A program made the translations under genes and the position numbers. This document shows, one piece after another, positions 16,083 through 59,524 of a stretch of DNA of 64,000 nt; positions within the stretch are counted from its first letter, which is position 1, and each line of letters starts with the position of its first letter. The DNA lies in contig PAJV01000076.1 of the NCBI GenBank assembly GCA_002706765.1, positions 496,001 through 560,000 on the forward strand, written 5' to 3'. This DNA comes from Gimesia sp. Its GTDB lineage: Bacteria > Planctomycetota > Planctomycetia > Planctomycetales > Planctomycetaceae. Under the pieces are notes generated by a model. The model saw nothing but the letters and a program-made list of their open reading frames with translations, was not told where the DNA came from and made no database searches.

Positions 16083-16170
16083 GCGCATTACATTTAACGA
16101 TAGCGTCTCTTAATCTATTATACTCGGACAAAATGGCCCTGGAGAGGCTATCGTAAAACTGGACGCAGTC
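16083..16170 (-). repeat. 88-bp dispersed repeat, copy A
   Basis: In minus-strand orientation the copy begins GACTGCGTCCAGTTTTAC and ends near GTTAAATGTAATGCGC. Between these ends, TTTTACGATAGCCTCTC can pair with GAGACGCTATCGTTAAA (15 of 17 positions), leaving a loop of about 34 bases that contains CGAGTATAA. It lies in the divergent region between tsaE and the MFS transporter. This copy has the best-preserved stem. Confidence 0.8.
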
Positions 16171-16278
16171 TCAAATCGGAGGGGCCGCCCTGCCCCGGCG
16201 ATTCGCATTCTGCAATGCACTCCGATAGAATACCTGCTGACTTCTGAATTGAATTCCTGCCTTAAAGCTTTCCTGAAC

Positions 16279-17475
16279 ATGTCCCACGCCTATCGTAGTC
16301 TGATTTGTCTCACCCTGACTCATATCATCGTTGATGCTTCAGCAATTGTAGTTGGCCCTTTGTGGGGGGAACTGGAACGGGTTCATTCCCTGACGGAGAA
16401 TTCGCTGTTCATTGTACTGACCATTCATGCGCTGGCATCCTCACTGGCTCAACCCGTATTTGGATACATTCGCGATCGATACCCGATCAAATCCATTTTA
16501 TGGCTGGGGCCGTTGCTGGGAGCTGTGATGATGCCGCTGGTCGGGCCGGCAAACAGTGTCTTTTTGCTGTGTGTGGCTTTGCTGTTGGGGGGAATTGGTA
16601 TCGGTTCTTTCCATCCGGAAGCGGCTGTGGTCGCAGGTTCCCTGATTCCGGAACGACGTACGCGGAGTCTGTCGCTGTTCATGTTCGGCGGTGCCATGGG
16701 GCTGGCGATCGGGCCGATCATCTGTGGGGCGATCGTTTCTACCTGGGGACTGTCGAGCGTCTGGATTCTGGCGCCGTTGTATGCCGGTCTGATTCTTCTC
16801 CTGCACAGGATTGGTAAACCACCGGCGGCTCTGTTTGAACGCGATCGAAAGAAAAAGGCGCAGTCATTGTCGCAGATGCTGGAAGGACGGGTGCCGCTGG
16901 CGTTGTTTCTATTTATGGTCTGCTCGCTCAGACTGGTTCCCAATATGGCGATGGATAAGCTGATATCTTTCATTCTGAAAGACCAGAATGTTTCCGCATT
17001 TCAGATCGGCCTGGTCCAGTCCGTCTTTCTTTTTTCGGCCAGCGCCGGGATGTTGCTGATGGCATTTCGATTCAAATCCGGTCATGAAAAGTTGTTTATG
17101 GTTGTCTGTCCGCTGCTGGGCATTCCCCTCATGCTGGTACTGGGCTGGGAAGGATGTCCCCTCTGGCTGATGACACTGTTATTGGTTCCCAGTGGCCTGA
17201 TTTTATGGGGAACCAGCCCCGCGATGGTCTCTTATTCCCATCAGCTTTTTCCGAAAGGGGGAGGTGTGGCATCCGCAATCACAATGGGGATGGCGTGGGG
17301 GGGCGGCGGTATGATCCAGGCGAAGATCACCAGCCATTTTGTAGCGTTGGGAACGCCTCAACTGGCATTTCATGCAATCATTCCCTGCCTGCTGCTGGCG
17401 GCGATCGGGGCGATGCTGTTACCTGTAGCGAAAGCGTCCTCAAAAACGCAGACGGAAGCCATTGAACCTGCGTGA
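16279..17475 (+). CDS. MFS transporter, fosmidomycin-resistance (Fsr)-like
   Basis: A 398-residue multipass membrane transporter with about 11-12 hydrophobic helices. The segment GIGIGSFHPEAAVVAG is close to the signature of Fsr-type efflux proteins, and YIRDRYPIKS occupies the loop 2-3 MFS motif. It is expected to export a small molecule by proton antiport; the substrate is unknown. The ATG at 16279 is chosen because the upstream TTG at 16249 lacks a ribosome-binding site, though the site for 16279 is also weak. It stands alone, divergent from tsaE, with repeat copy A between them. Confidence 0.87.
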   Translation: MSHAYRSLICLTLTHIIVDASAIVVGPLWGELERVHSLTENSLFIVLTIHALASSLAQPVFGYIRDRYPIKSILWLGPLLGAVMMPLVGPANSVFLLCVALLLGGIGIGSFHPEAAVVAGSLIPERRTRSLSLFMFGGAMGLAIGPIICGAIVSTWGLSSVWILAPLYAGLILLLHRIGKPPAALFERDRKKKAQSLSQMLEGRVPLALFLFMVCSLRLVPNMAMDKLISFILKDQNVSAFQIGLVQSVFLFSASAGMLLMAFRFKSGHEKLFMVVCPLLGIPLMLVLGWEGCPLWLMTLLLVPSGLILWGTSPAMVSYSHQLFPKGGGVASAITMGMAWGGGGMIQAKITSHFVALGTPQLAFHAIIPCLLLAAIGAMLLPVAKASSKTQTEAIEPA

Positions 17476-18022
17476 TTCAAGCGGTGATTCGAGGTCCGAA
17501 ACGTAGTGAGTGAATTGAGAATCAATGTGTCCTCAGGCCTGTCATCTGGCGAATGAAGGCTGTGAAATGAAGGCTGCGAAATGTGGTATTTTTGTTTTTT
17601 TTGAATAAAAATGAGAGCGGAAGCACTGAATTTCATTTTTAAAAGCAGGGATAACACAAGATATGGTATGTGAATCTGCTGAGGTCAGGATATTCGCTCA
17701 AAATAATCGATTCACTAGACAGCGTGCGGGGGCGGAACTAAGATCCGCACACTCAAGTGATTCGCAAAGTCTGGAATGAATCATTTGAATTTACTGAAAA
17801 TAATCAGTAGCAGACGGACCGAAGGAACGGACCGCTAAGAAGAGAATGGATTCTATTTCAAATCGTTCGATCAGGGGGGATTTTCATCCGCTCGAACGCA
17901 CTTCGAATGCGAGTCTCTACGCAAACGCTTCCTTCCATCTGCTCAATTTGGGGAATTCCCGTTACCTCCCCGTAAGTTTTTTTGACCGCACAGGAAGTGC
18001 ACTGAAGTGAAGGATGGATTCG
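17476..18022. other. Gene-poor region upstream of the amidotransferase-like gene
   Basis: About 550 bases. At 17553-17580 there is a 14-base near-perfect tandem repeat (ATGAAGGCTGTGAA then ATGAAGGCTGCGAA). The second half of the region holds a possible small upstream reading frame, listed separately. A weak reading frame also exists on the opposite strand. No clear terminator for the MFS gene was seen. Confidence 0.45.
17846..18010 (+). CDS. Possible 54-residue upstream reading frame
   Basis: An ATG at 17846 opens a frame of 54 codons that stops with TGA at 18008-18010, only 12 bases before the preferred start of the amidotransferase-like gene. The peptide begins MDSISNRSIRGDF and ends DRTGSALK, with no known motif. 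AAGAAGAG sits directly before the ATG, which is too close for a strong ribosome site. It could be a leader frame or chance. A minus-strand frame overlaps it. Confidence 0.2.
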   Translation: MDSISNRSIRGDFHPLERTSNASLYANASFHLLNLGNSRYLPVSFFDRTGSALK

Positions 18023-18787
18023 ATGTCTAAGAAACCCTTGATTGGAATTACCGGAGATTTTCGCCCCGAGCAAAAAGAGTCACAGGCTTTGAGCTGGTTC
18101 TTTACCGGCTACTATGACTCGGTCACAGACGCTGGTGGTATTCCCGTTATGATGCCTCCCCTGGCTGATGATGACGATCTGAAACAGTTTCTGGAGCAGC
18201 TGGATGGCCTGATTCTTTCCGGTTGTGCCTTAGACCTGGATCCCATCCGTCTGGGATTTGAAAAACACCCTGCTTCTCGCGCCATGCCTTTACGCCGCGA
18301 AGACTTTGACCGTCGTGTCTGTACGATGGCAATGGAAATGAAAATGCCTCTGCTGGCGATTGGATCGGGTATGCAACTGATGAACGTCATCAGTGGCGGC
18401 ACACTGCATCAGCACGTTATCGAAGACGTTGCCGGTGCCATGTACCACCGTGATGGTGTGGAAGCCAACCTGCGTCATATTATCAATATCGAACCTGGTA
18501 CCCGCGTTGATAAAATGTACGGTCCTGGTGAAATTCGTGTGAACAGCCAGCATCATATGGCTGTGAAATATGTGTCGAAAATGTTTGTTGTTTCGGCGAC
18601 TGCTCCGGATGGCGTGATTGAAGCCATTGAAGTACCCGATGAAGACTGGTTCTGTGTTGGCGTGCAATGGCATCCCCAGAATCACTCCGCGTCTGCTCTG
18701 GATATGCAGGTCTTCGAGAATTTCCTGACAGCTTGCGAAGAGCCCGAACCACAAATTCTGCAAATGCCTGTCCGCAAAGCTGCTTAA
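18023..18787 (+). CDS. Peptidase C26/PuuD-like glutamine amidotransferase fold, catalytic cysteine lost
   Basis: A 254-residue protein matching the gamma-glutamyl-GABA hydrolase (PuuD, peptidase C26) branch of class I amidotransferases: IGITGDF at the N-terminus, DGLILSGC, then LLAIGSGMQLMNVISGGTLHQH and VGVQWHPQNH. In active members the second block reads G-I-C-R-G-M-Q; here the cysteine is glycine at residue 114. The HPE glutamate is glutamine at residue 219, while His217 remains. The usual triad is thus Gly-His-Gln, so hydrolase activity is unlikely by the normal mechanism. The start at 18023 has AAGG eight to nine bases upstream; an ATG nine bases earlier has no room for a site. A terminator follows 90 bases after the stop. 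Confidence 0.85.
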   Translation: MSKKPLIGITGDFRPEQKESQALSWFFTGYYDSVTDAGGIPVMMPPLADDDDLKQFLEQLDGLILSGCALDLDPIRLGFEKHPASRAMPLRREDFDRRVCTMAMEMKMPLLAIGSGMQLMNVISGGTLHQHVIEDVAGAMYHRDGVEANLRHIINIEPGTRVDKMYGPGEIRVNSQHHMAVKYVSKMFVVSATAPDGVIEAIEVPDEDWFCVGVQWHPQNHSASALDMQVFENFLTACEEPEPQILQMPVRKAA

Positions 18788-18851
18788 CCCAAAGATGGGT
18801 TTACGGCGGCATTTCTGTCTGTTGAGGGCAGACCGAAGTCGCTGCAGCTTT

Positions 18852-18866
18852 GTATCATCGTGATAC
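18852..18866. other. Perfect small hairpin GTATCA-TCG-TGATAC
   Basis: A 6-bp perfect inverted repeat with a three-base spacer, just upstream of the strong terminator. It could be an accessory stem in the transcript end or a protein-binding palindrome. Confidence 0.4.
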
Positions 18867-18876
18867 GATGAACTCG

Positions 18877-18914
18877 AAATCGGCAAGTCATTACGACTTG
18901 CCGATTTTTTTCTT
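18877..18914 (+). terminator. Intrinsic terminator after the amidotransferase-like gene
   Basis: CGGCAAGTC pairs perfectly with GACTTGCCG across a five-base loop, with AAAT/ATTT extending the stem, followed by a T-rich tail of seven T then CTTT. This is a textbook Rho-independent terminator ending the rightward transcript about 90 bases after the stop codon; the symmetric A/T flanks mean it could act in either direction. Confidence 0.9.
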
Positions 18915-19112
18915 TAATGGTCAGGCTCTCGGAAAATTTGAACTTGTACCGGTTATTCTGACGATAACGATAGTATCCCACTCGAAAATGGCGGGAACTG
19001 ACGACGAATCTGATTCGATCCCGCTTCGAGAAAAATCTGTAACCCGCATTGAGAAAACGGGATAGCGCTAATACTCGGCGTCCGTTTTCCCTGATTGAGC
19101 CCGAAAAATCAT

Positions 19113-19991
19113 ATGACGACTGCCCAATATAAGGTCGACCTCAGTATATACAGTGGTCCATTGGATCTGCTGTTATACCTGATTCGGCGGAATGAACTCG
19201 ACATTCTCGACCTGCCAGTCGCTTCTATTACGGCAACGTTCAATGAATTCCTGGATGTGCTGGAACTGATTGATCTGGATCTGGTGGGCGATTTTATTCT
19301 GATGGCCAGCACTCTGGCTGAAATCAAAAGTCGAATGGTACTGCCGCGGGCGGAAGAAGAAGAGGTTGCGGAGGTCATCGACGATCCGCGCAGCGATCTG
19401 ATTCAGCAACTTCTGGAATATAAAAAATTCAAAGACGCCGCCAACGCGCTGGAAGAACATGCCGCAGAATGGCAGGAACATTATCCCCGACTCTCCGATG
19501 AGCGTCCCAAATCAGGCAAAGATCCTTCTGAAGATCTGATCAAAGAAGTCGAACTGTGGGACCTGGTCAGTGCGCTGGCTCGTGTCGTCAAACGCAAAGA
19601 AGTGGAAGAGCATTCCAGTATTACCTACGACGATACGCCGATTTCTACTTACGTGGAACGAATCGGTGCGCGTGTTCGTGTCGAGCAGCGGGTTACATTC
19701 AGCAGCTTTTTTGAAGGAGAAAAGCTGCGGAGCCGGATTATTGGAATATTCCTGGCCATTCTGGAGCTGTTGCGTCATCATCACTTCCGGGCAGATCAGC
19801 CTGTGGAACATGGTGAAATCTGGGTGATGCCTCCTCTGGAAGATACGTCCGAAGCAGCCGAAGCTTCCCCGGATCAGCATGCTCCCGAAGAAGAAACGGT
19901 CGTTCAAGAAACGGTCATTGCAGAATCTGATTCTGAAGCTCCCGTACAGCCGGAAGCACCTCCAGAAGACGAACCGGAATCGGAAGCATAA
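19113..19991 (+). CDS. scpA: Segregation and condensation protein A
   Basis: A 292-residue kleisin subunit that bridges SMC heads in the bacterial condensin complex with ScpB. The N-terminal block YSGPLDLLLYLIRRNELDI is diagnostic, followed by ATFNEFLDVLELIDLDLVGD and the MASTLAEIKSRMVLP helix. The C-terminal winged-helix part (RVTFSSFFEG) is present, then a Glu/Pro/Ala-rich acidic tail of about 45 residues. I use the ATG at 19113 because the upstream in-frame TTG has no site. scpB, often adjacent, is not seen; uvrB follows instead, about 170 bases on. Confidence 0.95.
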   Translation: MTTAQYKVDLSIYSGPLDLLLYLIRRNELDILDLPVASITATFNEFLDVLELIDLDLVGDFILMASTLAEIKSRMVLPRAEEEEVAEVIDDPRSDLIQQLLEYKKFKDAANALEEHAAEWQEHYPRLSDERPKSGKDPSEDLIKEVELWDLVSALARVVKRKEVEEHSSITYDDTPISTYVERIGARVRVEQRVTFSSFFEGEKLRSRIIGIFLAILELLRHHHFRADQPVEHGEIWVMPPLEDTSEAAEASPDQHAPEEETVVQETVIAESDSEAPVQPEAPPEDEPESEA

Positions 19992-20163
19992 TCCGTTTTC
20001 CAGGTGTCGTTTTATTATCGGGCGGCTTCTTTCGCTGCAGTACAGCCAGACCCTTTCTTATTGGCACTTCGATTCTCTACAATAAAAGGCTGAAAGTCTA
20101 ATTCCGATCTGAGTGTCCCGCCAGTTTTTCGGTAAGGGTCAAGTCTGGAGAGTGCGAGCGAAC

Positions 20164-22209
20164 ATGTCTGTGTTTCAGTTAAAGAGTGAATTTCAGCCTT
20201 CGGGAGATCAGCCGGCAGCCATCGAAGGCCTGGTGAAGGGCATCCGAGCAGGCAAATCGGATCAGGTCCTGCTGGGGGTTACCGGTTCAGGAAAAACCTT
20301 TACCATGGCTAACGTGATTGCCGAACTGGGGCGCCCTGCCTTGGTGCTCTCGCATAATAAAACCCTGGCAGCGCAGCTGTACTCCGAGTTCAAAGAGTTT
20401 TTTCCCGATAACGCGGTCAGCTACTTCGTCAGTTATTACGATTATTACCAGCCGGAAGCGTACATTCCCCAGCGCGATATTTACATTGAAAAAGATGCAT
20501 CCATCAACGATGAAATTGATCGACTGCGCCTGCTGGCGACCAGCGCCCTGGTCAGCCGTCGTGACGTGATTGTGGTGGCGAGTGTAAGCTGCATCTACGG
20601 GCTGGGCTCTCCCAAGGATTATCTGGAAATGATGATTCCTCTGCGGGTGGGGGAAGAAATCGACCGGGATGAAATGCTGCGTAAACTGATTGACATTCAA
20701 TATGACCGCAACAATGTGGAATTGGCACGGGCCCGATTCCGTGTGCGTGGTGATGTCGTCGAATGCTGGCCTGCTTATGAAGAGTTTGCCTTCCGGATTG
20801 AATTCTGGGGGGATGAAATTGAAAACCTGGCAATCATCGATCCCCTTACAGGCGAAGTGCTGCGGACTGTCAAAGAAGCCTATATTTATCCCGCCAAACA
20901 CTTTGTTCTGCCGCAGGAACGAATTGAGTCGGCGATTCAGGAGATTCAGACGGAGCTGGATGAACGCATTCAGGTGCTGCAGAGCGAAGGCAAACTTCTG
21001 GAGTCACAGCGATTGAGTGCGCGGACCCGCTATGACATGGAGTTGCTGGAAGAGGTCGGGTTTTGCCCGGGGATCGAAAATTACAGTCGGGCATTGGCGG
21101 GCAGAAAACCGGGTTCGCCTCCCGATACGCTCCTGGACTTCTTTCCGGAAGACTATCTGTTATTTGTGGATGAGTCCCATGTGACCTGTTCTCAGGTAAA
21201 GGCAATGTTTGCTGGTGACCGTTCCCGGAAAACGAATCTGGTCGATCATGGATTTCGCCTGCCGATGGCACTGGATAATCGTCCATTGACTTTTGATGAG
21301 TGGAATGCCCGGCGAAAACAGACAGTCTTTGTATCGGCAACGCCGGGTGACTGGGAACTGGAACGTGTCGAAGGAGAAGTGGTCGAACAGGTCATTCGTC
21401 CTACCGGATTGATCGATCCTGTGATTCGTATCGAGCCCGCGCGGGGGCAGGTGCCTCATCTAAAAGAAGAAATCCTCAAGCGGGTTGCCGTTAATGAGCG
21501 CGTGCTGGTGACGACATTAACCAAGCGGCTGGCAGAAGACCTGTCATCCTATTTTCAGGAAGAGGGAATTCGTTGTGCGTGGCTGCATTCGGAACTCGAT
21601 GCGTTTGAACGCGTGGAAATTCTGCGCGGCTTGCGTGAGCAGAAATATGATGTGGTCGTGGGGATCAACTTATTACGTGAAGGACTCGATATTCCGGAAG
21701 TCTCACTGGTAGCGATTCTGGACGCCGACAAAGAAGGTTTCCTGCGGAGCGAGACCAGCCTGATTCAGACGATCGGTCGCTCGGCCCGGCACGTCAATGC
21801 GGAAGTGATTCTGTATGCAGATCGTGTGACTCCCAGTATGCAGAATGCCATGGATGAAACCGAGCGGCGCCGTGTGATCCAGGAAGAATATAACCGGGAA
21901 CATGGAATTACTCCCGAGTCGATCAAAAAAGCAATTAAGCGGGGAATTGAAGAAGAGATTGAGGCGCGCCAGTTTGTGCGGGAATCCGTGGGGTTCAAGG
22001 ACGAGTCGGAATACATTACGCAGGAATTCCTGGGAGAACTGGAGCAGGAAATGCTGGAAGCAGCAGAGAAGTTGGAGTTCGAACGGGCCGCGTTACTGCG
22101 CGATCGGATTGATGATCTGAAAAATCAACGGGGAAAAACGGGAAGTCAAACTCAGAAGGGTTCTTCGCGTTCCGGTAAAAAAGGGAAACGCCAGCGTAAA
22201 AGACGGTAA
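20164..22209 (+). CDS. uvrB: Excinuclease ABC subunit B
   Basis: A 681-residue nucleotide-excision repair helicase-like protein that receives damaged DNA from UvrA and recruits UvrC. Walker [11 protein letters not shown] lies near residues 38-47, the beta-hairpin [12 protein letters not shown] follows, the DEAD-like acid box is LFVDESHV, and helicase motif VI is QTIGRSARH. The C-terminal UVR domain ([18 protein letters not shown]) is intact, followed by a basic tail rich in Lys/Arg/Ser. The ATG at 20164 gives the standard [17 protein letters not shown] start; a GTG at 20113 is less likely. It converges with the divergent uvrA gene, with only 16 bases between stops. Confidence 0.97.
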
Positions 22210-22225
22210 TCACGCCTGGTCGGTA

Positions 22226-24844: not shown

Positions 24845-24856
24845 GTGCTGTCAGTT

Positions 24857-26075: not shown

Positions 26076-26140
26076 TTCTTAGTTCCTTTACCACCAGTAA
26101 GGTCGGTCCATCCTTCCGGTTATTTTGGCGGATTTGTTCT

Positions 26141-28134: not shown

Positions 28135-28176
28135 GGGGTGATCTCAGGAAAATAGAGGATGTGTTGAATTCAAACT

Positions 28177-28242: not shown

Positions 28243-29259
28243 TTAGAATTCACCGAGCGTTTCGCCGCCTGCCCTGGTTGTCAGGCTGGCAAAGGTGTAG
28301 CCGCCAATGTTGGCGCTGATAAAGCGTACTGCGCCATCCCCCAGCAGGAAGTGAGCACCACCTACATGGAAACTTAGGAAACCGAAACTGCGCCCGTTCG
28401 TGCAGTTGATAGCACAGGGGCCACCGTCTGCGCCATCCGTTCCATCACGAAGCGAACCCTTGTACCAGTGGTCGCCGTTTAACAGGTCTCCCCAGCCTCC
28501 ACCGTTGGTAGGGCCATAGGCTGTTGTCAATGCTGCGTTTCTGGTCGTTCCGCTATAGATATTGGTCCCCCCTACTCTTTCGCCCAGTAAAATTGTGTTG
28601 GAGGAGCCATCGATAATATCACGCATTCTGGTAATTGTATTTCCCGGCGCAGTCGGATCTGAGGGATCGACTCCGACATTGTTTAACAGGCCGGAGCGGC
28701 TACTGGCGGCGGGATGGCCAGTATAAGAAATCGATGAATAGTCACCTCGCACACCCGATGCCGGACAATAATCGGTGCGGGCTGCTGTGTAAGTCAATGG
28801 GAAACTCAGGCTGGCGAGATCATAATTATGTTTCGTATCTTCCGGTGTCGAGGGGCACATAAAGACTGGCACTGGGGTTGCAATTACGGTCAGGTTTTGC
28901 GCGACAGCAGGAATGGCGGCGAGTTGATCGAAGGCCGGGTAGGATGAATTCCAGAGATTGTAAAGAGGAGCCTGGTCGATGTTAGGCAGAAGCATGACGC
29001 CATAAACGCCTGCTTTCGGGTTCGCAGGGTTGGTAGGGTCAACAAACCAGGAAAACGGAAAGCAGTTATGTGTGTCGTGGTAATTGTGGAACGCCAGTCC
29101 CAGCTGCTTGAGGTTGTTCTTGCAGGTGGAGCGTCGGGCGGCTTCTCTGGCCTGTTGCACTGCAGGAAGCAACAGTGCAATTAAAATAGCGATGATAGCG
29201 ATGACGACAAGTAATTCGATAAGAGTGAAGCCTTTTTTGAGGCGCGAGTTCAGTTTCAT
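28243..29259 (-). CDS. DUF1559 pilin-like protein (second copy)
   Basis: A 338-residue DUF1559 protein paralogous to the one at 4.5-5.5 kb: [17 protein letters not shown] at the N-terminus, a pilin-like hydrophobic helix and [18 protein letters not shown], and a C-terminal [13 protein letters not shown] motif. As with the other copy, prepilin-peptidase processing and extracytoplasmic location are expected from the family, but the role is not established. The ATG at 29259 has GGAGAGAG just upstream; an upstream in-frame start would add seven residues ahead of the pilin motif. It heads a pair with the downstream lipoprotein gene. Confidence 0.9.
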
Positions 29260-29905
29260 CTTCTCTCTCCTTTGACACATCGGAATAAGTTGACTGGGAT
29301 GGGGATAAATAGCGTTAGAATACTTCTCCGTTTGACAGGTAAGGTGAATAAGCTCCTCAATAGAAGTCTCGAATTATCAGCAAGAATTTGCGTTAGTGAA
29401 ATTTATTAAAACAGCCCGTCAGGCTGCAGATTCTCTTTACTCAATGCGCTTATGGAAATGGACGGGTAACGCTTGAGTTATCTTCAGGATACCGAGGCGG
29501 AGTGTCGGAATCCATAGCATTGTGTACGAAATAGGTAAAAATACTAATTTTAAATTTGTGCTAAGGTGGTGTGAAAAAACAACTGATTTTCCAGTCCTTT
29601 TCTGTCGGGATGAGAGCGAATCTTGTTGGGTTAAATCTGTTGGATTAATGACGGCCCTGGTTTCTGCGGCCCGTGATTTCAGGCCGGCTGGTACTGATGT
29701 GCCGAAGTGCGATCAGCGGCATTGTCTGTGTAATAATTACAAGCCAGGTGACGCCGGTCGTTTTTTTGAATTTCCTGGGTTGACCTGAATCGAAGAATTA
29801 CGAGAATGCTTCCCACTTTAAGACATTTCCAATTCTGAACAAATCCAATTTCCATACCTTTGCCTGTTCGGGCTGTCCGGATTTATTCACCACGCTACCA
29901 CGTCA
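29260..29905. other. Divergent intergenic region between DUF1559 and murE
   Basis: A 646-base region that must contain the promoters of both flanking genes. An 88-codon frame at 29522-29788 starts with GTG and has no supporting site or motif, so I do not call it. A small hairpin CAGCC-CGTCA-GGCTG is at 29412-29426. No other structure is apparent. Confidence 0.45.
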
Positions 29906-34570: not shown

Positions 34571-35896
34571 ATGAAGTCATCATTCTCAATCGATTCTCAG
34601 CCGGAGCACGATCGCAGCCTGTTTATTTCCATGGCCTGCGCGTTGCTCGGGATCGGAGTGTTGATGGTGCACAGCGCCAGCATCACCTCCTGGCCGACTG
34701 AATTCGAACAGGTTTATTTATCGAAGCACCTGATCTTCCTGGCAATCGCGGCGAGCGTGGCATCGTGCGCTTCGTATCTCCCGGCCCGCTTCTGGTACGA
34801 CCGCGCTCCCCTGCTCTTCTGGGGAACGGTGGTTTTACTGATTCTGGTCCTGGTTCCGGGGATCGGAACGCGGGTGAATGGAGCGCAGCGCTGGTTGCGG
34901 TTTGGTTCTGTTTCTCTGCAACCTTCTGAGCTGGCAAAAATTGCCCTGCCTCTCCTGACAGTACGTCTGATGGTGCAGCGGCGAAGTTCCGTGAAGCACT
35001 GGTTCAAGGGGACGGTGCCGTTACTGATTCCACTGGCGATTATTATTCCCCTGGTGATTAAACAACCCGATCTGGGAACGACCCTGTTTCTGGCGGGTGG
35101 TGTCATGATTGCCCTCTTTCTGGGGGGATGGCCGATTCGAAACTTTATCGTCGGTCTGTTATGCGCTTTACCTGCTGTGGGAATGCTGGTCGCTTTACGT
35201 CCTTATCAGTTGAAGCGAATCAGCGGTTTCCTGGATACCTGGACCAACTGGGAATCTGCCCCCTACCAGCTGAAGCAGTCTCTGATGGCTCTAGGGACGG
35301 GCGGCGTTTATGGCTCGGGACTGGGGAAAGGGGCACAAAAATTAAGCTTTCTCCCGGAAGCGAATACCGACTTTGTCTTTTCCGTCGCCGGTGAAGAGTT
35401 GGGGTTGATCGGCACACTCGCGATTGTCGGTTTATGGCTGGGGCTGTTTCTCACTGGTTTGAATATTATCCGCTCACAGAAACAGAATTCCTATGCGTAC
35501 GTAGTCAGTCTGACATTACTGCTGCAACTGGTGCTGCAGGCTGTTCTCAACGTGGCTGTTGTGACGGCCATGGTGCCGCCCAAAGGAATTTCGCATCCCC
35601 TGATCAGTTACGGCGGTACGAACCTGATGGTAAGTCTGCTCTCGCTGGGTATTATCATCAGCCTCACACGCTCAGCGGCAGATGACGCTCTCGTGATCGA
35701 TCCGGAACTCAATCAGGATGAGGAACCACTCGTCAATGAAGCCGTCACACTCGCTGAGGAGAAGACACCGTTAGAGGTGGATTCTCCGGAAGAGTGCGAA
35801 GATGAAGAGTGCGAAGATGAAGAGTGCGAAGATGAAGAGTGCGAAGAAGGCGAGTATGAAGAAGACGAAGATCTCGAATCAGAAGAGAGGTCTTAG
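34571..35896 (+). CDS. ftsW: FtsW/RodA/SpoVE-family peptidoglycan glycosyltransferase
   Basis: A 441-residue SEDS protein that polymerises lipid II into glycan strands, usually with a class B penicillin-binding protein. The block NGAQRWLRFGSVSLQPSELAK is diagnostic, followed by KQPDLGTTLF and LGKGAQKLSFLPEANTDFVF with the conserved loop, and PLISYGGTNLMV. About ten membrane helices are visible. The C-terminus is a cytoplasmic acidic tail made of EECED repeats with repeated cysteines. Placement between mraY and murG argues for FtsW over RodA. A GAGAG site lies just upstream of the ATG, beside a hairpin. No ftsZ, ftsA or ftsQ lies in the window. Confidence 0.92.
   Translation: MKSSFSIDSQPEHDRSLFISMACALLGIGVLMVHSASITSWPTEFEQVYLSKHLIFLAIAASVASCASYLPARFWYDRAPLLFWGTVVLLILVLVPGIGTRVNGAQRWLRFGSVSLQPSELAKIALPLLTVRLMVQRRSSVKHWFKGTVPLLIPLAIIIPLVIKQPDLGTTLFLAGGVMIALFLGGWPIRNFIVGLLCALPAVGMLVALRPYQLKRISGFLDTWTNWESAPYQLKQSLMALGTGGVYGSGLGKGAQKLSFLPEANTDFVFSVAGEELGLIGTLAIVGLWLGLFLTGLNIIRSQKQNSYAYVVSLTLLLQLVLQAVLNVAVVTAMVPPKGISHPLISYGGTNLMVSLLSLGIIISLTRSAADDALVIDPELNQDEEPLVNEAVTLAEEKTPLEVDSPEECEDEECEDEECEDEECEEGEYEEDEDLESEERS
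35789..35848 (+). repeat. 15-bp in-frame tandem repeat in ftsW tail
   Basis: Four copies of GAAGAGTGCGAAGAT (the last with one change) lie head to tail and encode Glu-Glu-Cys-Glu-Asp repeats. Being a multiple of three, copy number can change without breaking the frame, as in a coding minisatellite. Confidence 0.85.
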
Positions 35897-42168: not shown

Positions 42169-42522
42169 TCATTCCTGATCCGACTGACTGTTAATCTCAG
42201 CCTGATCAGAATCTGCATCAACAGTGTCCTTATCCAGACCCTGTCTGGTTGGAGCAACGAGTCGCTTTTTGATGGATCGGAATTCGTCGTCGGTAAGGTC
42301 ACCTTCTCGCTGCATTTCTGCGAATTGCATAAGTAATTCACGGGCATCCACATGACGATCCTCATTTTCCCGAAAACGTCCTACGACCCATACGATCAAC
42401 CAAATCAAAAAACTGACGATCAAAACTGCCAGGATCCATTCAACGAGATGATCGCCCAGCAGTTCCTTGAACAGCTTTTGTTTATCCGCCTGTTTTCCCA
42501 GAGTTAAAAAATAAAAAATCAC
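42169..42522 (-). CDS. Small membrane protein with SHOCT-like C-terminal motif
   Basis: A 117-residue protein with one strong membrane helix (about residues 28-48, EWILAVLIVSFLIWLIVWVVG). The following segment ARELLMQFAEMQREGDLTDDEFRSIKKRL is very like the SHOCT motif, a short C-terminal domain found on many small bacterial membrane proteins. The last third is acidic and Asp/Ser/Gln-rich. The start is a GTG at 42522, with a modest GAG upstream; ATGs downstream are poor. Function is unknown. Confidence 0.68.
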   Translation of the reverse strand: MIFYFLTLGKQADKQKLFKELLGDHLVEWILAVLIVSFLIWLIVWVVGRFRENEDRHVDARELLMQFAEMQREGDLTDDEFRSIKKRLVAPTRQGLDKDTVDADSDQAEINSQSDQE

Positions 42523-43227
42523 TGTAACTCAGGCAGAGAGCAAAGTCTTCCTGCCTTTCCTATATCTGAACTGCAAAACGGATGCAGGCTCCATGGACTT
42601 AGATGCGGATCCCCTGCTTAACACGACAGACTGTTATTATCAGGGAGACCTCTGAACGAGGCAAGCCTTCTTATGTCTCAGCTCAGTCACAGTATATGCG
42701 AGACTAAGCATTTCACGCGCCAAAAATGGTCAATTTACGATAAGAAAAAGAAATAGGATTGCTGGAAATCGCTGATCGAAAACAGACTGGACGCAGCCAC
42801 TGGACGCGATTCACCCCTGTTTTCCAGTTCCTGTCGGAACAATCACTTCTGGCAAACGGGAAGCCGTCAAACAGGAGTGGACTCTGATATGAAATTATTT
42901 TCCCTGGTGTCAACTATAGATAAGAGAGGTCAGAATCGTAAGAATTACATTGTCGATCTTACCGTAAGTGTAATACGAACGGGGATTTGACTGCTTTTGA
43001 AAGTGGAGAGGGAATCCTGTCTGAGCTGGAAGTCCGCCCGTGATTCTCATAAAATGGGATTCTTGCAAATGGTGCCGGTAAAGTCGGGAGACCGCTTGCA
43101 TTGCATCCTGAACGGATCACTTTTATGATCAACTCGCGAAATAAACGAATCATGATAATTCCAGGTCTGACTTAAAGTTCGTCAAACTGGTGTACAAATA
43201 CAGGTGGAAAGAATTTGAGGGTTTTGA
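42523..43227. other. Gene-free region between SHOCT-like and 161-residue gene
   Basis: About 700 bases. It contains a weak copy of the 88-bp repeat (listed separately). A short frame from the ATG at 42889 (33 codons) has AGGAG eleven bases upstream but no motif, and I do not call it. Nothing else supported. Confidence 0.4.
42705..42799 (-). repeat. Probable degenerate copy G of the 88-bp dispersed repeat
   Basis: On the minus strand the 5' side reads GGCTGCGTCCAGTC, then TTTTCGATCAGCGATTTCC, resembling copy A, and the 3' side ends near GTGAAATGC. The central part is diverged, so this is a tentative member. Confidence 0.4.
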
Positions 43228-48578: not shown

Positions 48579-49328
48579 GACAATCTATCTTCTGAGGACG
48601 GGAGAATACTGTTTTGATCAGATAATCAGCAACGCTTCTCAATACAAAAGCATCTCACATTTCACCACAGGCTCTCACAATCGATTAGGCTAACTCCCAG
48701 GCACTGGGAGGGGCACCGGTAAAACGAGACACAGTCGACGATGATCTCATGGTATGAGCGTTTGCAGATTTTCCTGTGTTTCAGTCTAAATTAACGGATT
48801 TCGGACGCCACGGAAAGTCACGCATCTACGGATGCCCATCAGGTCAGGCTTCTGTTCTCACCAGTTTGCCGGTCGTTTCTTTTGTCCCTTGTTTCTGCCA
48901 CCCTTTCTGATTGTTGCAGCAGTCCCTGTGGTCAGCACCCATCTCCAGAATGCAGTGGCTGTGAGACATAACTGGTTTTTCAAAATCGACTTATTTATCC
49001 TGCTTAGTGTTATGAAGCGAGGGCGAGTATGTTTGCTTTATCGTGCTTTCAGGTTTGCCTTCTGAATCGCCATGATACTGTACTGGATGTGTACAGGCGG
49101 TGTTTTCTACGAAGGATCTTGAGAAAAATCCCAATATCGGCTGGTTAAAATGAAAAATGTGTGAACAATAGACACAAATTGACTGACCCGGCATGTTGAC
49201 CGAATCTTCACGATTGAGTTTGGATCCCATGCTGGTAACTGGTTTGAGCGATAACAAGGGGACCTGTTTGAAGCTCAGGCTCACTGATTCGACTGGTGAT
49301 ATTTTCACATCACTGGCGGTATTCTTGT
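48579..49328. other. Intergenic region with repeat copy F
   Basis: About 750 bases between divergent genes. It contains copy F of the 88-bp repeat at 48650-48736. A 77-codon frame (48832-49065) on the plus strand and a 160-codon frame on the minus strand have no ribosome-binding site or motif and are not called. Confidence 0.45.
48650..48736 (-). repeat. 88-bp dispersed repeat, copy F (diverged)
   Basis: On the minus strand it begins GACTGTGTCTCGTTTTAC, keeps GATTGTGAGAG before the 3' arm and ends near GGTGAAATGTGAGATGC. The length (87 nt) and both ends match copies A to C, with substitutions in the middle. Confidence 0.65.
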
Positions 49329-50678: not shown

Positions 50679-50690
50679 CGACGTTCGACC

Positions 50691-51755: not shown

Positions 51756-52483
51756 TTGACCAGAACCCCTACCAGTGAAAGTCCCCATGGAACTCCCGTC
51801 ACATGGATCAATTTACGTTCTACCCCGGCACACGACAACAGGCAGCGATTTAAGAACCGCGGGATCCGGGAGAAGCGTGGTGTCTCATCATTCTCTCGTT
51901 TCAATACCCGGTCTGCCCCTCTGCTGATAATGGCGGCTGGCAGGGTAAACGAATTCCAGTGTGTCAGCCATTTGACCTTGAGACCAGCCTCTTTTGCATT
52001 TTGACGAAAATGCTTTTTCGTATAACGACAATAATGCCCCATTTTTCGATCCCAGTCAGAAAAGAGTGAGGGATAGGCGGGCACCGTAATGATGATCCCG
52101 CCATCATCGGCCAGCGTTTCTGCTGCGTTTTTCAGTAATTGCACGGGATCCTGCATATGTTCCATCACATCAAGTAACACAACGGCTCTGGCAGAAGCGG
52201 GAGCCACTGGCCAGGGCTGGCTTAACTCATGCACGGCGAGATTATTTAATCCGCGGGAACGACCATAATCGACTGAATCCTGCATCAGATCAAATCCGGT
52301 AACTTCATAACCCATGCGGCTGAACTCAAGCAGATTGCGAGCGGAGCCGATGCCTCCTTCAATGACTGATCCGGGAGCCGGGAATTCATTGAACAGGATT
52401 TCGGTCACCAGCTTTCGCTTGGCAACATGCCACCAGTAATTTTCTTCCAGTTCGATTAATTCAGTAAGATGTCCCGGGTCCAC
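51752..52483 (-). CDS. SAM-dependent methyltransferase, class I
   Basis: A 243-residue Rossmann-fold methyltransferase. The SAM-binding glycine motif is VIEGGIGSARNLLEFSRMGYEVTGFDL; then VVLLDVMEHMQDPVQLLKNAAETLADDGGIIITVPAY, the Asp/Glu and proline-rich motif II-III region of such enzymes. It matches those in surface-glycan or lipid-modifying loci, though the substrate is unknown. The start is a GTG at 52483, with AGAGAT just upstream. Its stop overlaps the GT2 start (ATGA), so the two are translated together and probably act in one pathway. Repeat copy E lies 36 bases upstream. Confidence 0.88.
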   Translation of the reverse strand: MDPGHLTELIELEENYWWHVAKRKLVTEILFNEFPAPGSVIEGGIGSARNLLEFSRMGYEVTGFDLMQDSVDYGRSRGLNNLAVHELSQPWPVAPASARAVVLLDVMEHMQDPVQLLKNAAETLADDGGIIITVPAYPSLFSDWDRKMGHYCRYTKKHFRQNAKEAGLKVKWLTHWNSFTLPAAIISRGADRVLKRENDETPRFSRIPRFLNRCLLSCAGVERKLIHVTGVPWGLSLVGVLVK

Positions 52484-52848
52484 GTTATCTCTTTTGATAA
52501 TAGTAGTCTGTTGATGCTGGACTGTTTCCAGTTTTTCAGTAGCGGCTCACGGGGTCAGGTCCATTTGGTCCAGGTATCAGAATCGATTTAGTGACGCTAG
52601 TGTTAAATGTGATGCGCTCGAAGTAAGAATGATGCTTAGTTAAGGAAATTCAGAAAGACTGCTGGAGTGTGCCTGAAACAGTCAGGATATCAGTGCGTTT
52701 AGGCCAACACCGCATCATTTCTATTCAAATTGGATAAAATAGATCATTTTTAACCGTATGTATTTTACCTGTGTTGCTTATGTTGTCTATAGTGTTGTGT
52801 GAGTAAGTGGCGTAACGTGTCAATTGCATGTAAATATGTGGAGTATTG
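52484..52848. other. Divergent intergenic region with repeat copy E
   Basis: Separates the leftward methyltransferase from the rightward membrane glycosyltransferase gene. It contains repeat copy E. The segment 52720-52830 is AT-rich and probably holds the rightward promoter. No other feature was supported. Confidence 0.45.
52520..52617 (+). repeat. 88-bp dispersed repeat, copy E (with a small insertion)
   Basis: Starts GACTGTTTCCAGTTTTT and ends GTTAAATGTGATGCGC. Its central portion is about 10 bases longer than in other copies. The inner arms TTCAGTAGCGGCTC and GTGACGCTAGTGTTAAA can still pair. It lies just upstream of the leftward methyltransferase start and in the leader of the rightward gene. 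Confidence 0.75.
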
Positions 52849-54615: not shown

Positions 54616-54622
54616 TCTCATT

Positions 54623-57070
54623 TCAGGGATCAGGAGCAGGTGCAGCTGCCTGTCTGCCGCGTGGATTTCGAAAGGCGGTCAGCAGTTGAACCAGGAGAAT
54701 GAGAAGTGCCGTTACGGAAATAATCCGTCCGAGTTGAAAGCCTGGTGGCAGGTAAGACAGCTCAAGCTGATGCTCGCCGGCAGGAAGTGGAATTGCTCTC
54801 AAGGAGCAGTCAGCCGGGAGGACGGGCAGATCCTGGTTGCCAATTCGCGCGGTCCAGCCAGGATAATAGATATCTGAGAGCACCAGATAGCCGGGGGCAG
54901 ACAGGCTGGCTTCGATTGTCAACTGATTGGGAGTTGCTTCCGTGATAGAAGCTGCTGTATAAGGCTGGCGTTTACCTCGCGGCAGGACATCCTGCTGCAG
55001 CAGCACCTGATTGCGGGGCTCGACGTTCGAAATCGCCGCCACGATTTTCTGGCTTGGTTGATTGGCATTAAAGGTTTTTGCATTTCCTGTGATGTAAGCT
55101 CTGGGGAGCGGATTCAGGTTTTCCAGAATCAGGTAGGGCAGCTGTTGAGATTGCTTGTTTCGCAGAGCGAATTCCTCAGGAATGGTTCCCTGCTCGATAA
55201 TTTTCCAGCCTTCGATTTCCGGTTTCTGATCAGTCTGCAGGATCACATATTTGATGCTCATCAGATCCAGCAGCGGCTTTTGTGCCGTCGTGAGATCTGG
55301 TGACTTGAAGCCCGCCATCATCGCGGCGGCATCCGGTTGCGGAAAGGCAGCTGCGGCCAGCAGTCCCAGTCGGACGAGCGGGACGGGCTCGTATCCCTGG
55401 ATTTTCATGATCTGATGCTGCCAGGCTTCGCGGTCGCTGAGTAGCTTCTGGTTAACCAGCACACGATGTTCGCCCAGGTTTTCCTTGAGAAACGAAATCA
55501 GCCTGGTTTCGCCTCGGAACGTACTTTGAGGGACGGTACTCAGAATCTGATTTGAATGGATACTGAGTTCCCCGATGCAGATCAGGCTGAGCAAGAGTGT
55601 GCCTGCGATTGCTGTTTTGCGGGAAAAACTGGCGAGCAGGAGTGCCATCAAACCTGCCAGGATCGCGGCAAACAGCCAGAACAGCTGCAATCTGAAAACC
55701 TGATCGGTTCCCATTCTGAATGTGACCTCGCCACGGGACTGCACGATCTGATAGCCAATCACCAGCAGCGAAACAGCCAGGCAAAGGCCTGTGATCAGAC
55801 GCCAGGTTTTCTTGCGTTGATTCTCTGAAAGCTGAATCAGGGTTTCACATCCAAAGCCGGCCAGCATGGAGATGGCCAGGGAACAGAGCCAGAGCAGACG
55901 TGCGGGAATGCGAAACATGGAAAATCCCGGGATCAGTTTATAACAGAGCGTGTAAAACGGCAGATGGGGACCAAAGGCGAGCAGCAAGGCGGCCACGCCG
56001 ATCAGAGTGAGGCGGATTACATTACGATCTTGACAGAAAACGCAGGTGCCCAGCAGAGCCAGCAGCAGCGGCAGGCAACCAAAGGAACAGATGGATTCCC
56101 AGTAATACAGACCGGGACCCTGGTATTGGTCAGGATGTCCCCACACAAAAGGGTCAATCAGCTGCAGTAAGCTGTATCCATTCAAACTCCCTTTATATAA
56201 GGCGGCCATATCGATCCCGCTGGAGCGAACCGCCTGCTTCGTGTAAATGAAAACAGGGATCAGATCAATGGCGACCAGTCCCGCCACAAACAGACTGACC
56301 AAAATCCAGTTTTTGAATCTGGCACCAGGAGTACTCATCCTTAATGAGCTCTCAGCAGCAACTTCCTGTTGATGCTCAGGGCTGGCGGACGTCTGACGTT
56401 TCTGACGGTAACGATCCACCAGGCATTCTATCGCCAGGGAGATACTGAGGAATAACAGCAGATAATACAGTTCCTGGACATGCCCACAGAAAAACGAAAG
56501 CGAGATCAGAATTGCCAGGAAGGGAACCGCTTTTCGGCTGCCTTCCCGCAGGAGTTCATATCCATACAGGATCCAGGGGAACCAGGCGATCTGTGTGACG
56601 GAGGTGAAATGACCTTCACCTGTTTTCGCTACAAAATAGGGAGCGGCCAGGAAAACAATCCCTGACAGCAGCGCACTGAAAAAACTCAGCCGGTACTTTC
56701 GTCCTAATACAAATGCTCCCAGTCCTGCCCACCAGTGGTGCAGGACCAGCGACCAGCTGATGGCATTGACGGCATTGGTAAAAAAGAACAGCCAGTTCCC
56801 CGGGTAAAACAGGGATGACTGCGGAGTTCCCAGCCAGGGCATGCCGAGGAGCGAGTACGGGTTCCAGTAGGGGAACTGCTGAAACTGCTCCCAGCAGATT
56901 TTCTGATAATTTTTAAAGGCAATGAATGCACTGGTCGTGTCATTATAGCCCTGGTTCTGGATGCCGACCAGTACATCGGAGGGATGGCTCAGCAAGGGAA
57001 AAAAGCATGCGCCGGCAGCGACGAGTAAAATCAGTGCAGCGATCAGATTTTGAAACAGTCTGGATTTCAT
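54623..57070 (-). CDS. YfhO-family large membrane protein
   Basis: An 815-residue integral membrane protein with at least ten hydrophobic helices in its first 540 residues and a long extracytoplasmic C-terminal domain before a final helix. The loop NYQKICWEQFQQFPYWNPYSLLGMPWLG with PQSSLFYPGNWLF matches the conserved extracytoplasmic loop of YfhO, a GT-C-like protein linked to glycosylation of teichoic acid or other glycans in Bacillus; close to the C-terminus, DIYYPGWTARIG and LPAGEHQLELSY are also typical. It is the last member of the glycan-assembly-like region 49-57 kb. Its substrate is unknown. Confidence 0.87.
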   Translation of the reverse strand: MKSRLFQNLIAALILLVAAGACFFPLLSHPSDVLVGIQNQGYNDTTSAFIAFKNYQKICWEQFQQFPYWNPYSLLGMPWLGTPQSSLFYPGNWLFFFTNAVNAISWSLVLHHWWAGLGAFVLGRKYRLSFFSALLSGIVFLAAPYFVAKTGEGHFTSVTQIAWFPWILYGYELLREGSRKAVPFLAILISLSFFCGHVQELYYLLLFLSISLAIECLVDRYRQKRQTSASPEHQQEVAAESSLRMSTPGARFKNWILVSLFVAGLVAIDLIPVFIYTKQAVRSSGIDMAALYKGSLNGYSLLQLIDPFVWGHPDQYQGPGLYYWESICSFGCLPLLLALLGTCVFCQDRNVIRLTLIGVAALLLAFGPHLPFYTLCYKLIPGFSMFRIPARLLWLCSLAISMLAGFGCETLIQLSENQRKKTWRLITGLCLAVSLLVIGYQIVQSRGEVTFRMGTDQVFRLQLFWLFAAILAGLMALLLASFSRKTAIAGTLLLSLICIGELSIHSNQILSTVPQSTFRGETRLISFLKENLGEHRVLVNQKLLSDREAWQHQIMKIQGYEPVPLVRLGLLAAAAFPQPDAAAMMAGFKSPDLTTAQKPLLDLMSIKYVILQTDQKPEIEGWKIIEQGTIPEEFALRNKQSQQLPYLILENLNPLPRAYITGNAKTFNANQPSQKIVAAISNVEPRNQVLLQQDVLPRGKRQPYTAASITEATPNQLTIEASLSAPGYLVLSDIYYPGWTARIGNQDLPVLPADCSLRAIPLPAGEHQLELSYLPPGFQLGRIISVTALLILLVQLLTAFRNPRGRQAAAPAPDP

Positions 57071-57353
57071 GCGTTACGTTTTGTCTTCACCAGAAGGGAA
57101 GACTCCAACAGAAAGTTAAGTGTTTTGTAAAGAATCTGATACACCCCAGGGTAAACCGTTTGCGGACAGCAACATCTTCCGTAGCGGGAAGGTGATTCCA
57201 GGTCTCAGGTTCGGTCAGCAAGGATCAGTGGCTGATTGCTGCCAGCAGGCAATTCAAGAGCATAGATCATGCCAACCGGCGGATCCAAGGGCAGAATTAA
57301 CCGGAGTACGGTTACGACAAGGTGCTTTGTGGCAACTTACTGCTGAAGAGGCA

Positions 57354-58202
57354 TCAGTCCCGATTGGGAGGCTGCAAGCCGTGTGGTTCGATGATTTTAC
57401 TGTACCACTCGGGACGCCGGTCTGCCAGGCGGTGAATCACATGCTTGTCTGGGACACGGTCGACCCGTTTGTTTCGCGCGCGGGCCGGATCGATGGTGGC
57501 GTAAAGGATTTCCGGATCGGTTCCCCGGGAGCAGGCTAATGTCTCCCCGGCGGTACCAGTGATGCGGCTCTTGCCGATAAACTCAAAGCCACGTTCCGAT
57601 CCAATACGATTGACGGCGCAGTAGTAGATTCCGTTTTCCATGGATCGCGTGTTGATGGCATGCTCGGCGACATGTTCCGCGCCGGCAGGCCAGTTGGTTG
57701 GCAGCACGATCAGATCTGCTCCCTCAATCGTCATGATGCGCGAAGATTCGGGAAAGGCACTGTCGTAGCAGATATTGAGTCCAATATTGACTTCGGGATG
57801 CGCGTAGACAGCGAAATCGCGGTCACCGGGGAGCGCAAAGCGGTCGACTCCCAAGTAGGGCAGATGAATTTTGCGATAGCTGCCCAGAACTCCCTGGGGG
57901 GAAATCAGGACTGCCGCGTTGTAAACGCCCTGCTCTGCCTGTTCCAGCATCCCGACCACGACGGAATGATTCAGTTCACGACAGACTTCCTGTAATCTGT
58001 CGGTAGATGGACCCGGAATTGATTCCGCGTAAGGCAGGGCTTCTTCGAGACTGGCGAAGCAATAACCGGTCAACGCACATTCGGGAAACACGGTGAGGCT
58101 GGCACCTGCCGCAGCAGTTTCTTTGATTTTCTCGATGATACGGGTGAGATTTCCCTCTTTGTCCATGAGAGAAACATCCATTTGAACGCCGGCAATTTTC
58201 AT
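57354..58202 (-). CDS. Carbon-nitrogen hydrolase (nitrilase superfamily)
   Basis: A 282-residue amidase-type nitrilase. The catalytic triad is visible: Glu in FPECALTGY (about residue 41), Lys in YRKIHLPYLGVDRFA (about residue 112) and Cys in NICYDSAFPESSR (about residue 146). The sequence is near the omega-amidase/beta-ureidopropionase or N-carbamoylputrescine amidase groups, but the exact substrate cannot be read. Likely cytoplasmic. Repeat copy B lies 15 bases upstream of the start, so it must overlap the promoter region. Confidence 0.9.
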   Translation of the reverse strand: MKIAGVQMDVSLMDKEGNLTRIIEKIKETAAAGASLTVFPECALTGYCFASLEEALPYAESIPGPSTDRLQEVCRELNHSVVVGMLEQAEQGVYNAAVLISPQGVLGSYRKIHLPYLGVDRFALPGDRDFAVYAHPEVNIGLNICYDSAFPESSRIMTIEGADLIVLPTNWPAGAEHVAEHAINTRSMENGIYYCAVNRIGSERGFEFIGKSRITGTAGETLACSRGTDPEILYATIDPARARNKRVDRVPDKHVIHRLADRRPEWYSKIIEPHGLQPPNRD

Positions 58203-58217
58203 TGATTGCGGTCCTCA

Positions 58218-58305
58218 GACTGTGTCCAGTTTTACTGTAGCGTCTCCAAAGCTATTTGAGCCGAGTATAACAGATTGAGAGACGCTCTGGTTAAATGCGA
58301 TTCGC
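58218..58305 (+). repeat. 88-bp dispersed repeat, copy B
   Basis: Begins GACTGTGTCCAGTTTTAC, with TGTAGCGTCTC and GAGACGCTC as pairing arms and CCGAGTATAACAGATTGAG between, and ends GTTAAATGCGATTCGC. It is the clearest complete copy. It overlaps the region immediately upstream of the leftward nitrilase-type gene. Confidence 0.85.
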
Positions 58306-58406
58306 CCTGGAATTCTGGATGATGGAAGAACCCATTCCAGGCAGAATACTGATTATAGGAGCCAGCAACGCAGGTTTCCATTGTCTCTTATCAAAGTGCC
58401 ACTGGA

Positions 58407-59126
58407 TCAGAGTCGTTCTGTTGTTCTGAAGGGAGACGCCTGCTGGACCGGGGCATCGATGTTTTCAACGGGTGCGGCCTGTTGCGGTGGAATCAGCACA
58501 CCGGAATCCACGAGTGTGATATAGGTCATCGTCAGCAGAATCGCGTAGGCGACGGCGTTGCCAAACAGGCCGTTTCCGAACCATTTGATGGCACTGCCCG
58601 AGGATTTCTTCAGACGAATGGTGATTCCCCTGCGTTCCACGCTGTAAACTTCATCCAGCACCAGGTGCGACAGAAAGCCGAGTGAGATTCCGCCCGCCAT
58701 CAGAAACTTGACGGCATAAGAATCGCTGAAATAGGCCAGGAAGACGGTTTCCCCGGTGATGATCAGAGCCGGTATACTGTGGAACATGCCACGATGAACG
58801 GCAAATTTACTGAGGATTGCAGCACCACCGTAGCGGACCGCGGCGTAGGTGACGACAGCCATCAGGATGGCGTTGTCCGGGTCGGCCCCTTTGTGAATCA
58901 TACACCGCATGGCAACGAAGGAAGCAACTGCTGCGGTGAGGGAGAACAGTTCCCTGATGGGACGGCCTGTTTCGGAATCGAGGTCAGGCAGCATACCGCC
59001 CACCCAGGTCAATACGCCAGCCAGAATTCCCTGCGTGGGCGTGAATCCCATGAACAGGCTGGCAATCGTTCCGTATCCGATTCCCAGTAAACCACTGACG
59101 CTGATATGTTCCTTATAACCGGCCAT
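58407..59126 (-). CDS. YdjM-like (DUF457) membrane-bound metal-dependent hydrolase family protein
   Basis: A 239-residue membrane protein with several hydrophobic segments and the metal-binding-like His/Asp pattern of the DUF457/YdjM family: GGMLPDLDSETGRP (Asp-Leu-Asp), then HRGMFHSIPAL and SHLVLDEVYSVE. In Escherichia coli YdjM is LexA-regulated, but no LexA box was identified here. The C-terminal tail is Pro/Gln-rich. Start at the ATG 59126. Repeat copy C lies 119 bases upstream, with copy D next to it. Confidence 0.83.
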   Translation of the reverse strand: MAGYKEHISVSGLLGIGYGTIASLFMGFTPTQGILAGVLTWVGGMLPDLDSETGRPIRELFSLTAAVASFVAMRCMIHKGADPDNAILMAVVTYAAVRYGGAAILSKFAVHRGMFHSIPALIITGETVFLAYFSDSYAVKFLMAGGISLGFLSHLVLDEVYSVERRGITIRLKKSSGSAIKWFGNGLFGNAVAYAILLTMTYITLVDSGVLIPPQQAAPVENIDAPVQQASPFRTTERL

Positions 59127-59244
59127 CCTGTTCTTCCCTGAAGCTTACGGTTTCATTCCGGAGTCGTTGAAGCTAAGTCCTTGCAGGGGCAATCTTAGCA
59201 GACCGGGGGGGAATCGATCAATGGGAGTTCAAATCACTGGATTT

Positions 59245-59332
59245 GACTGTGTTCCGTTTTGCTGTAGCGTCTCCCGGTTCATTGAGGACGAGTATATCAG
59301 AATGAGAGACGCACTGGTTAAATGTGACGCGA
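59245..59332 (+). repeat. 88-bp dispersed repeat, copy C
   Basis: Begins GACTGTGTTCCGTTTTGC, has TGTAGCGTCTC and GAGACGC arms, GACGAGTATATCAGAATGAG between them and ends GTTAAATGTGACGCGA. It lies 119 bases upstream of the leftward YdjM-like gene. Confidence 0.83.
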
Positions 59333-59436
59333 TCTGGAAGCAGAAATCAGCTTCCGGACCCTGATCTGGTTCAGACTGTTCATCTGCGAGCAGTCTGGTG
59401 AGATCGCGTAGAATCGGATGGGCTGTGCTTCCTCTG

Positions 59437-59524
59437 GACAGTGTGCCGTTTTTCTGTAGTGCCTCTGAGGACATGGGTGCCGAGTATCATAGTTTGAGAG
59501 ACGCTACTGTTAAAAAAGTCCTTC
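59437..59524 (+). repeat. 88-bp dispersed repeat, copy D
   Basis: Begins GACAGTGTGCCGTTTTTC. It keeps CCGAGTATCATAGTTTGAG, and GAGACGCTACTGTTAAA as the 3' arm; the last 16 bases diverge. It follows copy C by 104 bases in the same orientation, so the two form a spaced direct pair. Confidence 0.78.

Follow-up and report, generated by a model that had tools for sequence, protein, structure and literature searches.

The repeat family described here, from a planctomycete of the genus Gimesia, appears to have its closest analogues in RUP of pneumococcus with IS630-Spn1, and in the Correia or NEMIS elements of Neisseria. In those parts of the cited papers on which we draw, RUP is 107 bp long, is present in 108-110 copies, is intergenic and has TA at its ends, which resemble the ends of an IS630 element of the same host, and its terminal inverted repeat (TIR) is listed as 9 bp (PMC3049150, PMC2229807). 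Correia elements are described there as short, with 24-bp inverted repeats, stem-loop transcripts, a target that is TA and in some cases CA, and sites both filled and empty (PMC2649163, PMC2229807), while ISY100 of Synechocystis inserts into TA, which is duplicated, and its 24-bp ends probably suffice (PMC2170065). The material of this study is a stretch of 64,000 nucleotides, hereafter the window (contig PAJV01000076.1 of assembly GCA_002706765.1; G000:C76:496001-560000 under our own handles, in which G numbers denote genomes, L numbers loci and G000 the genome of the window), from a Gimesia sp. genome of 7.9 Mb. It holds six copies of a repeat that we interpret, with a probability of about 0.95, as a non-autonomous miniature inverted-repeat transposable element (MITE) of the IS630/Tc1-mariner type. 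The unit is 90 nt long, has an imperfect palindromic body, exists in filled and empty states and is accompanied by a 2-bp duplication.

Like RUP, the Gimesia unit is short and intergenic, has TA at its ends and carries an end like that of an IS630 element of its host. Unlike RUP, it comes from another phylum and measures 90 nt, and where the TIR of RUP is listed as 9 bp, one end of the Gimesia unit agrees with the insertion sequence (IS) at 24-25 of 27 positions and the other has diverged. Short length, inverted ends, a TA target and filled as well as empty sites are shared with Correia/NEMIS, for which, however, promoters, IHF sites and RNase III processing have been reported as further features. 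Both comparisons are by description. A TA target with duplication and ends of similar length (24 bp in ISY100) are further found in ISY100, but that element is autonomous and the Gimesia unit has no transposase.

The unit lies between two TA dinucleotides, TA-GACTGTGTCC...GATGCGCTC-TA, and its full oriented consensus is TA-GACTGTGTCCAGTTTTACTGTAGCGTCTCCAGGGCCATTTGRNCCGAGTATAATAGATTGAGAGACGCTATGGTTAAATGTGATGCGCTC-TA. Boundaries were read from 78 distinct copies, mostly from the best-scoring loci, of which the own genome contributed 40 and other genomes 38; these remained after matches covering fewer than about 60 query bases had been dropped (88 kept) and 10 that were near locus ends or duplicated had been removed. 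Identity to the consensus is 73-99% (median 91%), and 70 of the 78 copies are 90 nt long. A first-pass annotation of this DNA had given 87-88 nt for all copies but one; near-uniform length stands, with copy C of the window at 100 nt, but the figure itself was wrong, as the unit ends in GCGCTC about 2 nt past the 3' end proposed then. As DNA, the two 27-base ends are alike at 17 of 27 positions and thus form imperfect terminal inverted repeats, the left end having the form TAGACTGTGTCC...TAGCG. The consensus offers only 30 codons per frame, and two of the six frames are open throughout. TA flanks 58 copies on the left and 59 on the right, with 49 copies having it on both sides and 68 on at least one; 67 copies have T or C at position -3 and 77 have G or A at position +3, and farther out the left flank has no dominant base and the right flank shows a mild excess of A at +4 and +5. 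A second miniature form, a symmetric 60-nt unit with left-type ends on both sides of a short middle, lies at another locus of the genome (L097, G000:C42, 3762-3821).

Related genomes provide both filled and empty sites. The copy in G001 is absent at the same place from G012, G005 and G009, where a single TA replaces TA-element-TA. Beside a leucyl-tRNA synthetase gene, G005, G009 and G010 have a filled site, and in G001 and G012 the site is empty and retains one TA; the element is also absent there from G016, G013 and G003, in which the flanks are too diverged for the join to be read. In the window, the sites of copies D and E are both empty in G008 and G006, with a 2-base overlap of the flanks as extrapolated from the BLAST ends. 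At the copy D site, G014 instead holds two tandem copies. Tandem copies in G014 have a period of 92, and neighbours share one TA. The flanks of copy E also adjoin in G014, a case not counted because the wrong right flank had been paired. The site of copy B is approximately empty in G008, G014 and G006 (extrapolated gaps of -1, -1 and +2), and for copies C and F the comparison with relatives gave no readable site state. Taken together, four insertions have empty sites in sister species that fit a target duplication of 2 bp, and at two of the four it can be read as TA.

The leucyl-tRNA synthetase site (L071, L230, L231, L232, L233) also has a pattern of its own. The flanks of the empty site in G001 and G012 are 96-99.7% identical to those of G005 (97-99.7% for G001), and G010, although more distant than G001 and G012, shares the filled site with G005 and G009. 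Precise loss, repeated insertion and recombination are three alternatives for this pattern.

The right end of the unit leads to an IS630 element of the genus. This element, 1,025 bp with its TA, is present with both ends in G016 and G001, in copies that are 98.4% identical and both sit as C-TA-element-TA-G. The right end of the MITE agrees with the two IS630 ends at 25 and 25 of 27 positions in the G001 copy and at 24 and 24 in the G016 copy, and a search with a MITE-copy profile recovers the G001 copy at both of its ends (E 3.5e-4 and 9.7e-4). Shorter IS630 copies without the right end occur among the PF13358 loci of the genus in G000, G001 and G012, and the end of the truncated G000 copy agrees with the MITE right end at 22 of 27 positions. 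Two of the truncated copies (L093 1002-1812 and L092) perhaps lie on a shared mobile region, since their long flanks are near-identical in G000, G001 and G012. The IS630 element has two overlapping open reading frames (ORFs) that adjoin at a stretch of A residues, an arrangement that may represent a programmed frameshift, which it resembles. The second ORF matches the IS630 transposase model NF033545 with 143 bits (cut-off 100) as well as PF13358, the first reaches 45.8 bits to NF033545, below that cut-off, and the catalytic spacing of the transposase is DD34E.

Among related transposases of the class, a TA-flanked pair of ends could be read by script at 8 of 26 loci. Fifteen of these 16 ends begin with TAG and 14 have TAGCG at positions 23-27. 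Because both MITE ends follow this subgroup plan, TAG...TAGCG with TAGCG at positions 23-27, the left end reads as the putative end of an IS630 relative that did not turn up. Some IS5 groups share YTAR targets, and a miniature of another DDE family such as these might accommodate that target as well as a left end, GACTGTGTCC, for which no parent was identified. Such an origin is nevertheless very unlikely, given that the flanks at empty sites overlap by 2 bases and not 4 and that the right end agrees at 24-25 of 27 positions with an IS630 element.

Being shorter than 200 bp and devoid of its own transposase, with inverted ends and with filled and empty sites that reveal a target duplication, the unit has the properties of a MITE, and the TA target, duplicated, is that of IS630/Tc1-mariner elements. 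Its palindromic nature, intergenic position and high copy number, together with the presence of GTAGCGTC, could also suggest a repetitive extragenic palindrome (REP) or bacterial interspersed mosaic element (BIME) moved by a RAYT, a tyrosine transposase, and REPs tagged with GTAG or CGTC have been reported in Planctomycetes (PMC3733652). However, REPs measure 20-40 bp according to the same paper, as against 90 nt here, and the unit carries an end of IS630 type and duplicates TA (2 bp) at its target, so that we give this explanation almost no credence. The first-pass annotation had not recognised the repeat as a known kind of MITE, a view at odds with the TA duplication, the empty sites and the IS630-like end. 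It was right that the family itself was not a recognised one, for there is no Rfam match in the window and the family was not met in the literature searched. In that search, on Gimesia or Planctomyces maris, MITEs and insertion sequences, with subscription literature mostly outside its reach, no paper on such an element in Gimesia appeared among the results listed, and a MITE review (PMC10969869) does not contain the word planctomycet. The family is thus apparently undescribed, while the kind of element is well known.

Several observations weigh against an IS630-type MITE. In 29 of the 78 copies TA no longer stands on one or both sides, and the flanking dinucleotides of copies D and E in the window are not TA. 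Compared with the IS630 element of the genus, the left end of the unit agrees at no more than 16-18 of 27 positions, and none of the 16 ends of related elements matches it at more than 18 of 27. The MITE profile misses the ends of the G016 and truncated G000 IS630 copies at E <=1. At 30 of the 31 PF13358 matches in the genus, covered with flanks of up to 1.5 kb and many of them fragments, no full IS carrying the MITE left end turned up; left-type ends at these loci amount to two poor matches (L091 and L139). G008 and G014, with at least 102 MITE matches each, have no close transposase at E 1e-10, and G001 and G012 carry the transposase yet hold one MITE copy each; high MITE numbers do not track the IS630 transposase of this type. 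Finally, no transposition has been observed.

For the MITE reading, which we retain, insertion, duplication of TA and the likeness of the right end are shown, and the results, read on the pattern of ISY100, strongly suggest that an IS630 transposase encoded elsewhere, acting in trans on the unit, would recognise the ends of about 27 bp, cut the unit out and paste it into YTAR-like targets, duplicating TA. The unit presumably encodes nothing and would move only where a suitable transposase is present, after which its copies would degenerate in intergenic DNA, a setting that tolerates insertion. The hairpin would be a consequence of the paired ends.

The first-pass annotation had proposed a genome scan as the test of the family, and the scan favours it: the own genome contains at least 40 BLAST matches to copy D, D itself included (40 of 181 candidates scored), and at least 150 matches to the model (3.5e-11 for the weakest listed). 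Allowing at most 2 mismatches, the left-end pattern has 132 matches in the same genome, compared with 0 for a reversed control. From 100 pattern matches listed, 15 left ends missing among the listed model matches were picked by eye; 13, the symmetric L097 unit among them, proved to be further copies (E <=0.001) and 2 had no model match, and no transposon was found at any of these 15 ends. In a model search of 40 genomes, all 17 of the genus (own included) and none of the 23 outside it had matches, ranging from at least 102 in G000, G008 and G014 to exactly 1 in G001, G005, G009 and G012. When at most 1 mismatch was allowed, 13 of 397 genomes searched in the class contained the left-end pattern, comprising 12 of 15 of the genus and one outside it (G285). 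As the reversed control pattern also matches 3 genomes outside the genus, the pattern alone is no evidence there, and G285 stands only on a longer match, to positions 2-80 of the sequence profile at E 1.8e-8 (L177, also L185). This unit of 91 nt has the same left end and a final CGCTC, followed by GA instead of TA, and is probably a relative that has diverged in another genus. Another clean copy comes from a metagenome-assembled genome (L189). Viral contigs had 0 matches to the exact left-end pattern, and copy D had no match among plasmids and phages.

With respect to genes, 71 of the 78 copies lie between predicted genes, 3 lie inside them and 4 are at locus edges, whereas random positions would place 63.5 of 78 inside genes, with genes defined by a simple ORF rule. 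The neighbouring genes are co-directional around 31 copies, divergent around 22 and convergent around 18 of the 78. Intergenic placement in all three arrangements fits tolerated insertion rather than one regulatory role.

The self-pairing body allows for a different explanation, in which the repeat is a structured RNA, either a cis-regulator or a small RNA, with a hairpin under selection and with copies spread across the genome by duplication. This is distinctly improbable, although 25 of the 30 examined stem positions can pair as RNA when G.U is counted, all 6 arm-to-arm transitions preserve pairing as G.U on one of the strands (chance about 0.03, in a test chosen after seeing the data), and among 97 distinct copies double changes fill 17 of 2417 cells as compared with a shuffle mean of 6.7, none of 500 shuffles being as high. 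Four transversions between the arms do not keep pairing, however, and slid controls give 23 to 40 double changes; as these exceed the 17 observed, selection on RNA structure is not demonstrated. In addition, the covariation alignment was fitted to a model containing part of the structure, folding z-scores lie between -2.8 and +0.24 for the six window copies and are not consistently better than shuffles, and the covariation term of RNAalifold is only -0.38. Rfam has 0 matches in the window above the gathering score, there is no single gene context, and the empty sites in relatives speak against an RNA element. The pair-preserving change that the first-pass annotation had seen in copy A proved partly real, in that one change is two-sided (U.G to G-C), but two other pairs are broken; two one-sided changes also keep pairing, and the number of paired positions is 23 in copy A and 25 in the consensus. 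Overall, evidence for selection on RNA pairing is weak, and a regulatory RNA was rejected on the Rfam result, the weak covariation and the lack of a single gene context. It also seems unlikely that the unit, besides being a MITE, is kept as a strand-specific RNA hairpin acting as an RNase III-type processing or stability signal, its arms having drifted apart largely within the limits set by G.U pairing on one strand; if true, transcribed copies could act next to numerous genes of Gimesia, in the manner of Correia elements in Neisseria. A promoter or terminator within the unit was likewise considered and rejected, as a scan of 58190-59640 gave 2 promoter-like sites (1.2 expected), one of them at 59513-59486 (-) inside copy F, and 0 terminators (1.0 expected).

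The window copies (Table 1) were assessed with a sequence-only profile, R2, built from 26 copies outside the window, taken from 29 non-window loci (L002-L030) with L005, L006 and L018 left out. This is the fair test of the window copies, as another model, R1, contains them and its scores in the window are inflated. At E <=10, R2 gave 8 matches in the window, of which 6 are distinct copies (E 6e-29 to 1.6e-10), and the remaining 2 (E 0.0018 and 0.0027) are the opposite strands of copies A and D, found because the unit is palindromic. A dispersed family whose ends are conserved and whose body can pair with itself is borne out, as are six of the seven copies named earlier. The seventh, a weak copy placed near 42705-42799, is noise: the best scores in 42400-43100 with filters off are 9.2 and 6.6 bits, and in a scan of the whole window the 9.2-bit match (42799-42872) has E 5.4 and the 6.6-bit one is absent at E <=10. 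Nor do all copies share one orientation, since A and B, which start at 16083 and 48650 in the earlier reading, lie on the minus strand and had hence been aligned backwards. Copy A gives an inverted match to copy D at 80%, and copy D lies upstream of the minus-strand ORF 57354-58202, 15 nt from its start.

Table 1. Copies of the Gimesia MITE in the window, with the spans matched by the R2 profile.
Feature	Position	Strand	R2 match span	Description
MITE copy A	16081..16170	(-)	16079-16172 (-)	90 nt, 90% identical to consensus; flanked by two divergent predicted genes
MITE copy B	48648..48736	(-)	48645-48737 (-)	degenerate, 73% to consensus; divergent intergenic region
MITE copy C	52520..52619	(+)	52518-52621 (+)	100 nt; 10 inserted bases in core
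MITE copy D	58218..58307	(+)	58216-58310 (+)	top-scoring window copy, 90% to consensus
MITE copy E	59245..59334	(+)	59243-59337 (+)	81% to consensus
MITE copy F	59437..59526	(+)	59434-59515 (+)	degenerate, 77%; 3' end decayed; profile positions 2-83 only

Other repeated sequences were noted in the window. About 300 bases at 59653-59981, at the start of ORF 59625-60836, match many places in genomes of the genus at about 74-81%; the matches of this ORF outline a multicopy gene family sharing its 5' part, and it has no Pfam match at E 0.001. A 15-base tandem repeat, GAAGAGTGCGAAGAT, occupies 35789-35872 within ORF 34571-35896, and the minus-strand ORFs 4525-5646 and 28243-29280, about 23.7 kb apart, contain stretches that are 73-82% identical.

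With this family, such a MITE is documented in a phylum where the literature searched showed none. For the annotation and masking of Gimesia genomes, it supplies a mobile repeat with defined boundaries and at least 150 copies in one genome, and it provides presence/absence markers between close species. Furthermore, the leucyl-tRNA synthetase site makes precise loss versus repeated insertion testable.

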